Origin: a virus | IMG/VR virus record: IMGVR_UViG_3300025671_000055 | Coordinates: 1-64,000 of that record | DNA: 64,000 nucleotides | Strand: one strand, 5' to 3' | Notes under the pieces: generated by a model | What the model was told of the DNA's origin: nothing | Database searches by the model: none | What the model saw: the letters and a program-made list of their open reading frames with translations, nothing else | Shown: one piece after another, positions 14,001-30,526 of the stretch | Numbering within the stretch: position 1 is the first letter of the stretch | How the letters are laid out: every line of letters begins with the position of its first letter | Position numbers and translations under genes: made by a program

Positions 14001-14114
14001 AAAGAAGAATTAATAGAGTGGATTTATAATCTACCACTACAAACTTTAACTGATGAGTTAAAAGATGATATTGTAGAAAAGATTGATGATTTAAACCAAA
14101 ACAAAGATGAGTGA
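13995..14114 (+). CDS. Small acidic 39-residue protein
   Basis: The ORF reads MSKEELIEWIYNLPLQTLTD followed by an acidic helix ending NQNKDE. It fits the overlap style of the cluster: its stop lies within the next gene's first codons. The leader is shared with that gene, suggesting the two arose or were joined by recombination. Function unknown. Confidence 0.5.
   Translation: MSKEELIEWIYNLPLQTLTDELKDDIVEKIDDLNQNKDE
14090..14112 (+). repeat. Duplicated gene leader, copy 2
   Basis: Second copy of the leader at 13978-14000, differing only by A for G in the middle. It lies at the end of the 39-residue ORF and supplies the ATG of the gene at 14107. Confidence 0.7.
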
Positions 14115-14298
14115 AGCGTATGAAAACTCCTATAAGTTATTGATGGGAGAAACAACGTATGATGAATTAGGTAGAGATGGGCCGTTCTTGTTACCAAAGA
14201 ACCATGAAGATCCTTTAGTTACACTGGAGTATTTTATAGATATAGAAGACTATGAAAAGTGTAGTAATATCAGAAATAAAATAAAAGAGAATGAATAA
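14107..14298 (+). CDS. Small unknown protein
   Basis: A 63-residue acidic protein (MSEAYENSYKLLMGETTYDE, then a Pro-containing loop and a C-terminal helix). Its start is the duplicated leader sequence, and its end overlaps the lipoprotein gene by 8 bases (ATGAATAA). Not recognised. Confidence 0.55.
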   Translation: MSEAYENSYKLLMGETTYDELGRDGPFLLPKNHEDPLVTLEYFIDIEDYEKCSNIRNKIKENE

Positions 14299-14539
14299 AT
14301 TATTATTAGTAGCACTCTTATTAGTAGGGTGTGGAGAGAAAGGAAGATTAGAGCAGCATGAAAAAGATTGGTCAAATGCAAAACCTCTCAAGGTAGAAAG
14401 GTACATAGATGAATCAAATTACCATGAAGCAAAAGTAAGTACGTTTATAATAGATGACCATAAGATTATTGTATATCATAGTAGTTATGGTGGTAGATTA
14501 GTAGCAATACCCTTAAATAAAACAGAAATAAAAGAATAA
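14291..14539 (+). CDS. Small lipoprotein
   Basis: An 82-residue protein with a short signal sequence ending in the lipobox LLVGC (MNKLLLVALLLVGC), followed by a small basic-acidic domain with beta strands (VSTFIIDDHKIIVYHSSYGG). It should be exported and lipid-anchored. This is the second lipoprotein of the early region, supporting an envelope-modifying module. Confidence 0.7.
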   Translation: MNKLLLVALLLVGCGEKGRLEQHEKDWSNAKPLKVERYIDESNYHEAKVSTFIIDDHKIIVYHSSYGGRLVAIPLNKTEIKE

Positions 14540-14542
14540 ATT

Positions 14543-14674
14543 ATGAAAAGAAGAATTAAACATGAACTCCACTGGAATTGGAGAAGAATTAAACTTTATG
14601 GAATATTTGCATGGGTTTTTTATGGATTAATGATTTTACGTTTAGTAGAAATAATTTTTAAGTTAGGCTTATGA
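14543..14674 (+). CDS. Small single-pass membrane protein
   Basis: A 43-residue ORF: a basic N-terminus (MKRRIKHELHWNWRRIK), then one transmembrane helix (LYGIFAWVFYGLMILRLVEII). It begins 3 bases after the lipoprotein stop and ends in an ATGA overlap with the next gene. Unknown role. Confidence 0.5.
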   Translation: MKRRIKHELHWNWRRIKLYGIFAWVFYGLMILRLVEIIFKLGL

Positions 14675-14874
14675 GTGAAGATTTAAATAAACACAGACAG
14701 GTAAAAAGTGTAGATAGTAATCAACATGATTATGATCGTATAAAAGAAACTATAATGGAAAATAAGTTTACTCTCTGTCATTTAGGAGAATCAGTAATGG
14801 AATTACATGAAAAATATCCTAATGATACAGAGTTTGGTAAACAAGTTAGACAATTAATACTTTTAAAAAAATGA
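14671..14874 (+). CDS. Small unknown protein
   Basis: A 67-residue, mostly helical protein (MSEDLNKHRQVKSVDSNQHD and onward). It starts within the previous stop and overlaps the next start by ATGA. Not recognised. Confidence 0.55.
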   Translation: MSEDLNKHRQVKSVDSNQHDYDRIKETIMENKFTLCHLGESVMELHEKYPNDTEFGKQVRQLILLKK

Positions 14875-15347: not shown

Positions 15348-17357
15348 ATGATATATTTAGTAAGCAATCAGCAGAGTATGTTTAACTCTGCTGGTTATTC
15401 TATGTCTTCTATAGAGGAGTCACTAGAATATTTAGAAACATTAGACATAATCGGTTTTGACACCGAGACTATGGGTATGGATCCTTATACCTGTGAGCTG
15501 TTATCTATGCAGCTAGGCGATAATGACAAACAATATGTAATCGATTGTACTACTATTGACCCTAAAGAATATAAGGATATTCTTGAGAAGAAAGAACTAA
15601 TAATGCATAATGCTAAGTTTGACTTAAGATTTTTGTATTATCATGGAATAGTTCCGAAGAAAGTATATGATAGTTTTCTTGTAGAAAGAATATTATTTAC
15701 TGGTATAGATACAGTAAGAAAATCTCTTGATGCAGTGACTTATAAATACTGTAAAATAGAGCTTGATAAAACTGTACGAGGTTATATACACAAAGAAGGA
15801 CTGAGCTCTAGAGTAATAAAATATGCAGCTGACGACGTAAAATATCTCCACGAGATAAGACGAAAGCAAATAGTAGCCCTAGAAGAGAAAGGGCTAAAAA
15901 GAACAGCAAGTTTAGACAATGAGTTTGTGAAAGTACTAGCTTATATAGAATTCTGTGGCTTTTATATGAATCCTGAAGATTGGCAAAACAAGTGTAATCA
16001 AGATTATAGCGATCTTATGGAAATAACAAGAAAGCTTAATCTATTTATACTAGAGAATCCTGAGACATATAGTGGCTTTATAGACTCACAGCTTGATTTA
16101 TTTCAAGACGGTGTTAAGTGTAATATAAACTGGTCTTCGTCTCAACAAGTTATACCTTTTATGCAATCTCTTGGTGTAGATACTAAGATTAAAGATAAAA
16201 AGTCAGGCTTGATGAAAGATTCTGTAGATAAGAAAGTTCTTGTTAAGCAAAAAGATAAACATCCTATTATTAGTACTTATTTAGAATACACTGAAAAACA
16301 TAAAGTTGTAAGTACATATGGTGAAAATTGGTTTAATTATATAAATCCTATAACAGGAAGAATACATTCTAATTTTACACAAATAATGAATACGGGTCGT
16401 TTATCTTCTGGTCAAAAAGCTAATAAAAAATACAATCTTCCTCAAATGCCTAATATGCAAAATATACCTTCTGATACAAGAACAAGAAGTTGTTTTCAAT
16501 CAGAGAAAGGTAATACATTAATAGTTAGTGACTATAGTGGTCAAGAGCAAATAGTATTAGCTAATAAATCTAAAGATACGGACTTATTAAATTTCTATGC
16601 TCAAGGCTTAGGTGATATGCATTCATTTGTAGCATCTAAGATATTTCCTGAGCTAGCTGATTTAGCTCTTAATGATATTAAAAGTGATCATAAAGAGAAA
16701 AGACAGATAGCAAAAGGTGCAGGCTTTGCAATTAACTATGGTGGTACAGGTATAACTATATCTCAAAATCTTAACATCTCTATGACTAGAGGCGAAGAAG
16801 TATATAAAGCATATTTTAAAGCTTTTCCTGGTCTTGCTAATTATTTTAAGCAAGAAAAGACTAAAGCATTAAAATCAGGTTATATACAATTTAATGAGGT
16901 AAGTGGTCGTAAGTGCTATATACCATTCTTTGAAGACTTTCAAAGATTAACTGCTGAGATAGAAGAAGATCCAGAGTTCTGGTCGGATTATAGAGACCAT
17001 AAAGCAAGAAACACTGAGAAATTTAAAGAATATTATAAACCAAAAGTACGTCAATATTTTATTAAGAAAGGTGATATAGAAAGAATGTCACTTAATTATC
17101 CTATTCAAGGTTCATCTGCAGATATCACTAAACTAGCAGGTATATATTTCTTTAGGTATCTAGAAGAAAATGATTTAGTATTTAAAGTTAAAATGCCTAA
17201 TGTAGTTCATGACGAGTGGGTTGTAGAATGCAGTGAGGATATCAAGAATGAGATAAGTAAAGTACTTCAAGTATGTATGGAAAAAGCAGGTGATGTTTTC
17301 TGTAAAACAGTAAAACTAAAAGCTGAACCTGAAATAACAAAATATTGGCAACATTAA
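15348..17357 (+). CDS. DNA polymerase, family A, with 3'-5' exonuclease
   Basis: A 669-residue replicative polymerase. The proofreading domain shows FDTET at 37-41 (exo I), NAKFDLRF at 88-95 (exo II) and YAADDVKYL near 159-167 (exo III). The polymerase domain has motif A SDYSGQE at 394-400, motif B RQIAKGAGFAINYGG at 452-466, and motif C HDE at 621-623. All catalytic acidic residues are present. There is no 5' nuclease domain, as in other phage pol A proteins. It opens the replication block and ends in a large RNA stem that includes its stop codon. Confidence 0.96.
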   Translation: MIYLVSNQQSMFNSAGYSMSSIEESLEYLETLDIIGFDTETMGMDPYTCELLSMQLGDNDKQYVIDCTTIDPKEYKDILEKKELIMHNAKFDLRFLYYHGIVPKKVYDSFLVERILFTGIDTVRKSLDAVTYKYCKIELDKTVRGYIHKEGLSSRVIKYAADDVKYLHEIRRKQIVALEEKGLKRTASLDNEFVKVLAYIEFCGFYMNPEDWQNKCNQDYSDLMEITRKLNLFILENPETYSGFIDSQLDLFQDGVKCNINWSSSQQVIPFMQSLGVDTKIKDKKSGLMKDSVDKKVLVKQKDKHPIISTYLEYTEKHKVVSTYGENWFNYINPITGRIHSNFTQIMNTGRLSSGQKANKKYNLPQMPNMQNIPSDTRTRSCFQSEKGNTLIVSDYSGQEQIVLANKSKDTDLLNFYAQGLGDMHSFVASKIFPELADLALNDIKSDHKEKRQIAKGAGFAINYGGTGITISQNLNISMTRGEEVYKAYFKAFPGLANYFKQEKTKALKSGYIQFNEVSGRKCYIPFFEDFQRLTAEIEEDPEFWSDYRDHKARNTEKFKEYYKPKVRQYFIKKGDIERMSLNYPIQGSSADITKLAGIYFFRYLEENDLVFKVKMPNVVHDEWVVECSEDIKNEISKVLQVCMEKAGDVFCKTVKLKAEPEITKYWQH

Positions 17358-17513
17358 TAATACCCAATGTCACTAATGTACATAGTTCTGGATTAGGTTG
17401 GCGAAAGCTAGAAAATGTTGGTGAAAATATCCGTAAAAATAATCGATCCTAGTACCTCAAATATCTGAAATATAGTTGGCGGGGCATAAAGTTAAGACAT
17501 TGGGATATTATTA
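17355..17513 (+). ncRNA. Large structured RNA with 17-bp closing stem
   Basis: Bases 17355-17371 pair with 17496-17513, 17 bp with a single bulged A at 17505; the stem includes the polymerase stop codon. The interior has a GC-GAAA-GC tetraloop hairpin (17401-17408) and three copies of GTTGG(C/T)G at 17397, 17417 and 17475. No ORF crosses it. It could be a stable RNA cut out of the polymerase-helicase mRNA or a control element between the two genes. Family not recognised. Confidence 0.6.
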
Positions 17514-17531: not shown

Positions 17532-18782
17532 ATGACAAGAACAGAAAGACAAATAGAAGTACTAAAAAAATGGCGAGCGAATAACTTTAGAGGTATATTC
17601 CAAGCTGCTACAGGCTTCGGTAAAACCTATACTGCTATTATGGCTATTAAAGGTATGGTAGATAGAGCAGGTATAGAATCCTGTCTAGTTGTTGTGCCTA
17701 CTATTACATTAAAAGCACAATGGGAAGCAGAACTAGCTAAAAATAAAGTAAAGTTTGCCGATGTGTTAGTAATTAATACTGCTATAAAGCAACCTCGTAA
17801 CTATGACATGTTAGTTTTAGACGAATGTCATAGATATGCTGCTGATAGTTTCAAAAGAATATTTGAAGTAGCAGATTGTGAGTATGTATTAGGTCTAACA
17901 GCAACTTTAGAACGTGAAGACGGACTTCATGATATTATTCTAGATTATCTAGAAGTAATTGATGAAGTTACTGTAGATGATTGCTTAGAAGCAGGATGGA
18001 TAGCACCGTATACTGTGTACAATGTAGCTGTGCCTTTGCCTAAAGATGAGCAAGAATCATATGATAAAGCTAATAATACTTTTAAGCATTTTGCTGCAGT
18101 TTTAGGATTTGGTGGAGATGCATTTAGAAAAGCACAACAGCATCTTAAAAGCGGTACTAGTGAACAGAAAGGTAAAGCGGCTCAATATTATGCATCTATG
18201 AGAAAGCGTAAGACTATATGTTTAAATAATAGCAATAAAGCGCAAGCTACTCATGATATTATCCAAGCTGTAGGTAAACGTAACGGCCTTATATTTAGTG
18301 GCACTGTGGAATTTGCAGAATTGTTGCAAGAAAAGCTTGGTGATATATGTATGAGCTTTCACAGCAAAATAACCAAGAAACAACAGAAAGACATAGTAGC
18401 AAGGTTCAAAGACAAACGCACCAAGGTGCGATATATCAGCAGTGTACAAGCACTAAACGAGGGTTTCAACGTTCCTGATTGTTCGCTAGCAATTATAGCT
18501 GGTTCTAATTCTACTAAACGTACTTTTATACAGCAATTAGGTAGAGTTGTCCGTATGCAACCTGATAAAGAAGCAATCATTGTAAACCTTTATTCTCCTG
18601 GGACTCAAGAAGAAGTTTGGATGAAAAAAAGGTTAGGTGATATAGATAAAAATAAGGTAATTATTTGTAACTTAGAAGACTTTTTAAATCAGTTAAATTA
18701 TGGAAATATCGATGAATCTGGAGTTGCTCCAGCGGTCATCCCTGACTCCGAATCAGCTAGTTCTACTACAACTTCTGTATAA
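17532..18782 (+). CDS. SF2 DNA helicase (DEAD/DEAH-type, XPB/UvsW-like)
   Basis: A 416-residue superfamily 2 helicase. Motif I is TGFGKT (27-32), motif II DECH (97-100), motif III GLTATLERED (about 126-135) and motif VI QQLGRVVRM (about 337-345). The short single-ATPase core without extra domains resembles UvsW/XPB-like phage helicases that unwind forks or recombination intermediates. The last 25 or so residues are low-complexity (SESASSTTTSV) and lie in the region shared with the next gene, suggesting that tail is dictated by the overlapping frame. Confidence 0.92.
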   Translation: MTRTERQIEVLKKWRANNFRGIFQAATGFGKTYTAIMAIKGMVDRAGIESCLVVVPTITLKAQWEAELAKNKVKFADVLVINTAIKQPRNYDMLVLDECHRYAADSFKRIFEVADCEYVLGLTATLEREDGLHDIILDYLEVIDEVTVDDCLEAGWIAPYTVYNVAVPLPKDEQESYDKANNTFKHFAAVLGFGGDAFRKAQQHLKSGTSEQKGKAAQYYASMRKRKTICLNNSNKAQATHDIIQAVGKRNGLIFSGTVEFAELLQEKLGDICMSFHSKITKKQQKDIVARFKDKRTKVRYISSVQALNEGFNVPDCSLAIIAGSNSTKRTFIQQLGRVVRMQPDKEAIIVNLYSPGTQEEVWMKKRLGDIDKNKVIICNLEDFLNQLNYGNIDESGVAPAVIPDSESASSTTTSV

Positions 18783-27445: not shown

Positions 27446-27457
27446 AAACAAAACGCT

Positions 27458-27955
27458 ATGGTAAGTGAGATTAAATTAGAATTTCCTGAATTCATAACTC
27501 ATATACCTGTTAGTAAGAAAAACTGGGTCAAGATTGGTTATAATAAGATTCATGCATCTGTGCACTATACAACTAGGGCAGCTCTTGTAGCTGCCATGCA
27601 CGGATATATTGAAAAACATATACCAGACAATCTAAGTATTGACACCCCCGTAGAAACAAAACTAACAGTATATGCGCCTATAAATTATGGAGTTATGAAA
27701 ATGATAAAAGATAAAGAAACAGGAAAAAGAAAGACGAGTTGGAAACCAGCAGCCGATGATTACAAACCTAATTGGGATATAGGCAACCTAGCTCTCATAT
27801 GGATTAAATGTCTAGATGATGTGTTAATAAAGAAAGGTATATTACCTGATGACACTGTAGAATTCTTAAGACGTACTCAATATGAGTTTGTGCCTGTTAG
27901 AAATTTGAAGAACAGAAAATTAGTTTATAAAATTAAATCAATTAAAAGAAGATGA
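27458..27955 (+). CDS. RusA-like Holliday junction resolvase
   Basis: A 165-residue protein. The segment PNWDIGNLALIWIKCLDDVLIKKG (split at residues 105-127) and LPDDTVEF (129-136) match the RusA pattern of spaced Asp residues: WD(I)GNL, LDD, then DD. It resolves branched DNA during recombination and before packaging. Its end overlaps the nuclease gene by 4 bases (ATGA). Confidence 0.8.
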   Translation: MVSEIKLEFPEFITHIPVSKKNWVKIGYNKIHASVHYTTRAALVAAMHGYIEKHIPDNLSIDTPVETKLTVYAPINYGVMKMIKDKETGKRKTSWKPAADDYKPNWDIGNLALIWIKCLDDVLIKKGILPDDTVEFLRRTQYEFVPVRNLKNRKLVYKIKSIKRR

Positions 27956-29662: not shown

Positions 29663-30526
29663 ATGACAAAACTTATAAAGAAAATTAATAGAAAATCTAT
29701 GTTGATTAGACCTTCTGGTAGATCAACAGATTTTATTTCACCTAGCTTCGGCTATGGCTGCTTGTATGATTGCAGCTATTGCTACATGAAGCGTCATAAA
29801 CCAAAAGGTTTAGACATTGCAGAAAATATAGAAGATATATTAACTGTTGTAAATAATCATGCATATTTTACACCTGTCGATAAACCTAATCAAACACATC
29901 CTGTGTTGACTACTTATGACATCAGCTGTAACGAAGACTTCGCTCTGCATGCTAAGTTCTATGATTGGCAAAAGATATTTGAATTCTTTAAGAACCATCC
30001 TTTGGCTATGGGTTCATTCGCTACTAAATATGTTAATCCTGACTTTATTAGTTATGATCCTAATAAGAAGATTAGAATTAGATATAGTCTTATGCCTCAA
30101 CATATGAGCGATAAACATGAGCCTAATACATCTAAGATACTTGACAGGATTAAAGCTGTTGACGCATTTATAGATGCAGGTTATGAGGTACATCTTAATT
30201 TTAGTCCCGTGATTGTATACAAAGGTTGGCGTAAAGATTATAAAGAATTGTTTGAGATGGTAAATGAGTATATCGATTACAAGGACGAAGTACTCGCAGA
30301 AGTTATCTTTCTTACTCATAATAAAAAGAAACATTTGGCTAATCTTAAGAATCACGCTGAAGCAGAAAAAGATTTATGGATTCCCGAAATTCAGCAAAAT
30401 AAAATATCGCAATATGGTGGCGAAAATCTAAGATATGAGTTATCTTTAAAGAAGAAATTCATAGAACAATTTACTGCTATCCACGACAGTATAATTCCTT
30501 GGAATAAAATTAGGTACATCTTTTAA
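29663..30526 (+). CDS. Radical SAM protein, spore photoproduct lyase-like
   Basis: A 287-residue protein. FGYGCLYDCSYCYMKRH places Cys at 33, 37 and 40, the CxxxCxxC motif that holds the [4Fe-4S] cluster of radical SAM enzymes. The preceding SPSFGYGC and the arrangement of later segments (YEVHLNFSPVIVYKGWRKDY) recall the SPL family of DNA-photolesion repair enzymes. The gene sits alone between two terminators at the end of the replication block. A repair role on phage DNA is plausible; the substrate cannot be read from the sequence. Confidence 0.82.
   Translation: MTKLIKKINRKSMLIRPSGRSTDFISPSFGYGCLYDCSYCYMKRHKPKGLDIAENIEDILTVVNNHAYFTPVDKPNQTHPVLTTYDISCNEDFALHAKFYDWQKIFEFFKNHPLAMGSFATKYVNPDFISYDPNKKIRIRYSLMPQHMSDKHEPNTSKILDRIKAVDAFIDAGYEVHLNFSPVIVYKGWRKDYKELFEMVNEYIDYKDEVLAEVIFLTHNKKKHLANLKNHAEAEKDLWIPEIQQNKISQYGGENLRYELSLKKKFIEQFTAIHDSIIPWNKIRYIF

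Follow-up and report, generated by a model that had tools for sequence, protein, structure and literature searches.

A conserved structured RNA in intergenic gaps of phage genomes, probably a small RNA cut from a longer messenger

The window, that is the whole 64,000-nucleotide stretch of DNA analysed here, is part of a 67-kb record from an uncultured phage. Its + strand carries the replication genes and its - strand carries very long genes, the virion genes included. Among the replication genes, a family A DNA polymerase gene (15348-17357, + strand; PF00476, E 7e-63) is followed by a helicase gene (ResIII/Helicase_C; 17532-18782, + strand). The polymerase shares about 40% identity with its counterparts in crAss-like phages, a group that the gene order also fits and to which the window phage may belong. 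Between the polymerase stop codon (TAA, 17355-17357) and the helicase ATG at 17532 lies a gap of 174 nt, which ranks third among the listed + strand genes and is the longest in the polymerase-to-primase block, bearing out the initial annotation, which had called it unusually long. The replication block also contains a 506-nt stretch (27446-27951) with no listed open reading frame, the lists being restricted to frames of at least 180 amino acids.

The junction holds a structured element that we call RNA1 (17355-17513, + strand), corresponding to about 164 nt that are missing from relatives with an empty site. The RNA measures roughly 145-160 bases, with a core of about 125 nt, and is enclosed by a closing stem, P1. 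As initially described, P1 consists of 17 Watson-Crick pairs (TAATAATACCCAATGTC / GACATTGGGATATTATTA) with one bulged A (17505), and it contains the polymerase stop codon. Its inner part pairs a conserved 5' arm (CCCAATGTC, 17363-17371) with a conserved 3' arm (GACATTGGG, 17496-17504). Its outer part is an 8-bp extension of 17355-17362, which includes the stop codon, with 17506-17513, which the bulged A precedes. None of 5000 shuffles of the arms (30-nt flanks) matched the native pairing. Among the 31,909 positions at which the window could accommodate this geometry, 7 were equally good, the element itself being one of them. P1 is therefore not a chance product of the composition of its arms. 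We detected no promoter above chance level at the junction and no intrinsic terminator (a GC-rich stem followed by a U run), the sequence after the stem being A-rich; both results are expected of a passenger in a longer transcript. The window contains no second copy of RNA1, which occurs once per genome.

Three distinct RNA1 sequences are known to us, from the window and from two further contigs, L102 and L200. The L102 copy was located by an exact 26-base core pattern and scores 194 bits against the covariance model, of which it is one of the two sources. This model, built from the window and L102 sequences and then used to search phage records, recovered the copy on the 109-kb contig L200 (98.5 bits, E 2e-18). 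The L102 phage encodes a PolB polymerase, and the L102 and L200 phages are otherwise very different. In both, the RNA sits after a gene resembling spore photoproduct lyase, with a few nucleotides between the end of its 3' arm and a tRNA-Arg(UCU) gene; no tRNA gene adjoins the RNA in the window. All three copies are oriented like the genes around them.

These genomes have further features. The window has its own lyase-like radical SAM gene (29663-30526; PF20903, E 6e-25), a gene frequent in these phages. Directly after the tRNA-Arg gene, L102 (569-861) and L200 (1709-2000) share a second non-coding stretch of about 300 nt that is 91% identical between them and ends in AAGGGU...ACCCUU plus a T run. 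This stretch has no match in Rfam (searched with the L102 sequence) or in the phage collection, and it is missing from L222, where GTACTAATTTTTAAATTTAAATTATGAG takes its position. A 773-bp stretch is 88% identical between the window (14093-14865) and L102 (958-1715), which otherwise belong to distant phages. It adjoins the RNA cluster in L102 and is separated from RNA1 in the window by about 2.5 kb, and it suggests exchange between the two lineages.

Comparison of the three sequences separates the closing stem from the core. Relatives share the stem in the same register over its inner 9 bp only. The outer part, 8 bp that include the stop codon, is specific to the window phage and absent from the homologs. 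All nine inner pairs form in the window, L102 and L200 despite sequence change, and six of the nine have changed on both sides. The chance of 9 bp forming at a fixed register is 1.9e-4, and 19 of 5000 shuffles of the L102 arms pair as well as the native ones. Because the L102 and L200 stems are nearly the same, these data represent two independent closing stems rather than three. Identity between the window and L102 is 93.5% in the core but 39% in P1 (Fisher p 2e-7). Such a near-complete replacement of P1 around two nearly identical cores is odd. Selection for pairing alone accounts for part of it, as several of the changes are double transitions.

Inside P1, the core shows a small set of candidate helices. 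Hairpin P2 (17373-17385; CTA/TAG around the loop ATGTACA) contains one A-U to G-C change in L200 and one mismatch in L102. Arm P3 (17390-17449) joins GGATT (17390-17394) to GATCC (17445-17449), gives the alignment consensus GGATT/RRTCC and is kept through G-U changes; its interior is variable, and shorter in L200. The changes in P2 and P3 lend these two helices light support. Arm P4 (17456-17483; CTC/GGG and TCT/AGK) is weakly suggested, and one of its pairs is broken in the window by a T-T mismatch. The inner helices rest on few changes. The most conserved stretch, GAAATATAGKTGGCGGGGNNTAAAGTTAA (17467-17495), differs at three positions among the three members. The arms of RNA1 probably form a four-way junction. 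Through the palindrome UGUACA in its P2 loop, one RNA might pair with another; L102 has AAGUACA instead.

The initial annotation had also pointed to a GAAA-capped hairpin and to three GTTGG(C/T)G words (17397, 17417 and 17475). Both are present, and neither is conserved. The hairpin (17398-17411), in the variable part of P3, is identical in L102 and missing from L200. The first two GTTGG words are likewise missing from L200, and the third word reads GGTGGCG in L102 and L200. As the words are not kept among members, we regard them as incidental and reject a repeat array.

What upholds the proposal of a structured RNA is covariation across the three sequences, not folding energy. In their alignment, 97% of cells are paired and seven pairs have changed on both sides; neither figure was reached in any of 500 shuffles, and a one-column shift of the partner strand made the pairing collapse. 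The folding energy is unexceptional for the whole 159 nt (z -1.1; 29 of 200 shuffles as good) and for the element without its outer stem (z -0.3). The three members have no open reading frame in common; a 17-amino-acid frame that the window and L102 share is missing from L200, and we rejected it.

RNA1 matches no described RNA in the collections searched. Against the 4227 families of Rfam (ROOL, GOLLD, riboswitches, ribozymes, 6S and tmRNA included), the element in the window gave no match at the gathering thresholds or at E values up to 10, nor did the L102 element at E values up to 5. The covariance search of Crassvirales suggested earlier was run as part of a search of about 190 phage records, and it returned no further credible member in crAss001, its relatives or the other records. 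Weak matches fell inside the PolB gene of L201 and the RNA polymerase gene of crAss001; one of 18.5 bits in L205 lies between genes. None of these was counted, and neither were the remaining matches of 16-20 bits, which are within chance for so many records. When viral and bacterial genome contigs were scanned for sequence patterns, only chance matches came up beyond the known members (a pattern match in L213 does not match the model, and one in L294 lies inside a coding gene). Blast against annotated phages and plasmids gave short matches only, the best being 39 nt in an S. aureus plasmid that lacks the rest of the element. Literature searches turned up no account of an RNA of this kind in these phages.

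We compared the polymerase-helicase gap among some 80 relatives collected through polymerase and helicase searches. Three contigs (L001, L033 and L040) carry RNA1 in a gap of 177 nt, within a region identical to that of the window. In L009 and L085, the gap is 13 nt long (CAACATTAAAAAYAATTAAATG) and contains no RNA1; relative to them, the window insert is flanked by CAACATTAA and AAACAATTAAATG. Three others (L007, L046 and L084) have a gap of 64 nt with an unrelated stem-loop: a 51-nt insert (L007:8008-8071 for the gap) that forms GACACC/GGTGTC followed by TTATTT. L002-L005, L008 and L083 have a gap of 659 nt that contains a Mom-family DNA modification gene (PF25680), and phages further removed, L022 for example, have a gap of about 400 nt with a small gene. 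Across 1.7 kb of polymerase and helicase sequence, L009 diverges from the window by 2.7%, and L002 and L003 by 3.7-3.9%. The variability of the gap and the lack of the element in such close relatives point to recent insertion or loss at a place prone to take up cargo. Insertions also split the polymerase gene itself in L035, L036, L048, MT774389.1 and PP438436.1, the last of which carries a LAGLIDADG endonuclease gene in its insertion.

The second site tells a similar story. The place between the lyase and tRNA genes is empty in L215, L216, L222, L225, L226 and L237; in L215 and L216, whose lyase gene is 92% identical and whose tRNA is identical, a few bases separate the two genes. With close relatives showing empty sites at both places, RNA1 behaves as an element that is gained and lost. 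In L267, a Mom-family gene, judged by eye from the sequence, follows the lyase gene. Because the Mom-family gene occupies the same gaps elsewhere, both kinds of gap look like shared cargo sites.

The reading that we favor, with moderate confidence, is that RNA1 is a small non-coding RNA gene of phages that spreads between them, is excised from a polycistronic transcript and acts in trans. Its core, about 125 nt long and strongly conserved, is closed by a stem kept mainly as pairing; the RNA sits in intergenic gaps in the direction of transcription and would be made as part of the polycistronic transcript. An RNase III-like activity may then cut the closing stem and release the RNA. Where a tRNA follows almost directly, the 3' end could also arise by processing of the tRNA 5' end (RNase P); in the window copy, the stem could provide a route for both ends. 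The freed RNA would then act in trans. The sequences themselves show the structure and its conservation, the presence or absence of the RNA, its change of position and its constant orientation; from these features we infer transcription, excision and trans action. Excision is favored by the position of the RNA right against a tRNA gene in L102 and L200 and by the pairing-only stem. A small RNA of its own, probably cut from the mRNA, fits the conserved core, the pairing-only closure, the sense orientation, the tRNA adjacency in two of three copies and the lack of a promoter and terminator. The reading is limited by its basis of three distinct sequences with two independent stems, by the ordinary folding energy and by the rarity of the RNA.

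A cis-acting role would place the function in the messenger itself, with the structure separating translation of polymerase and helicase, or serving as a sensor or riboswitch for the timing of the downstream gene. The position exactly between two genes, the stop codon within the stem and the resemblance of a conserved core with a pairing-only stem to a riboswitch all suit this account, which we nevertheless consider unlikely. Phages that diverge by 2.7% and 3.9% do without RNA1, one of them having only the helicase leader AAAAATAATTAAATG and the other a Mom gene in the gap. RNA1 is followed by a tRNA gene rather than a helicase gene in L102 and L200, and it has neither an Rfam match nor a terminator. 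The earlier suggestion that the element blocks or times helicase expression is thus weakly supported: near-identical phages lack RNA1, the empty-gap relative keeps the same helicase leader, and the neighbors change among members.

Other accounts treat the element as mobile DNA or as debris. A non-autonomous, MITE-like element with the closing stem as its terminal inverted repeats would explain the clean presence and absence at two places and the inverted-repeat ends. Yet a transposase must recognize the ends, and here conservation is lowest at the ends (39%, compared with 93.5% for the core), with no clear target duplication and one copy per genome; we hold this to be quite improbable. That a mobile RNA core enters the loop of hairpins already present in gaps, each copy adopting a new closing stem, seems slightly less probable again: it would account for the nearly whole replacement of P1 between window and L102 around an almost unchanged core, and L007, L046 and L084 do carry an unrelated 51-nt stem-loop in the same gap, but we found no relative with the corresponding empty hairpin, and compensatory change under selection for pairing alone accounts for some of the replacement, most double changes being transitions on both sides. 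Least probable of all, in our judgment, is a functionless decaying insertion or chance inverted repeat. The rare and patchy occurrence and ordinary folding energy of RNA1 would suit it, but the core is 93.5% kept between phages with different polymerases, and the pairing of the stem is kept too.

The contrast in RNA1 of a near-frozen core with a replaced but still pairing stem suggests how a phage RNA may change place and stay folded. More boldly, and as a quite doubtful proposition, it could represent a new kind of mobile phage RNA, whose folded core moves between gaps, takes a new stem at each place and is expressed without a protein of its own. The near-identical phage pair with and without RNA1 makes its role testable.

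Several known RNAs offer points of comparison. Riboswitches also have a conserved core closed by a P1 stem in which mainly the pairing is kept; unlike them, RNA1 has no fixed downstream gene, no recognizable expression platform and no match to an Rfam class. In ribosomal RNA processing, a closing stem of variable sequence surrounds the conserved RNA and is cut by RNase III. The RNA1 stem differs in its length of 9-17 bp, short for RNase III, and its cleavage is a prediction. RNAs C and D of phage T4 are small stable RNAs that are transcribed and processed with the phage tRNAs in the tRNA cluster. RNA1 resembles them by description and, unlike them, occurs at differing genomic places. The ROOL and GOLLD RNAs of phages and prophages, which often lie near tRNA islands, are of unknown function (PMC12286853). 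Both are elaborate, and GOLLD members often exceed 800 nt. RNA1, at about 125-160 nt, is smaller and matches no Rfam family, whereas ROOL and GOLLD have Rfam models. Like them, it is a phage-borne structured non-coding RNA near tRNA genes (in L102 and L200), and as a small family absent from Rfam it joins the few phage RNAs of unknown function found in such surroundings.
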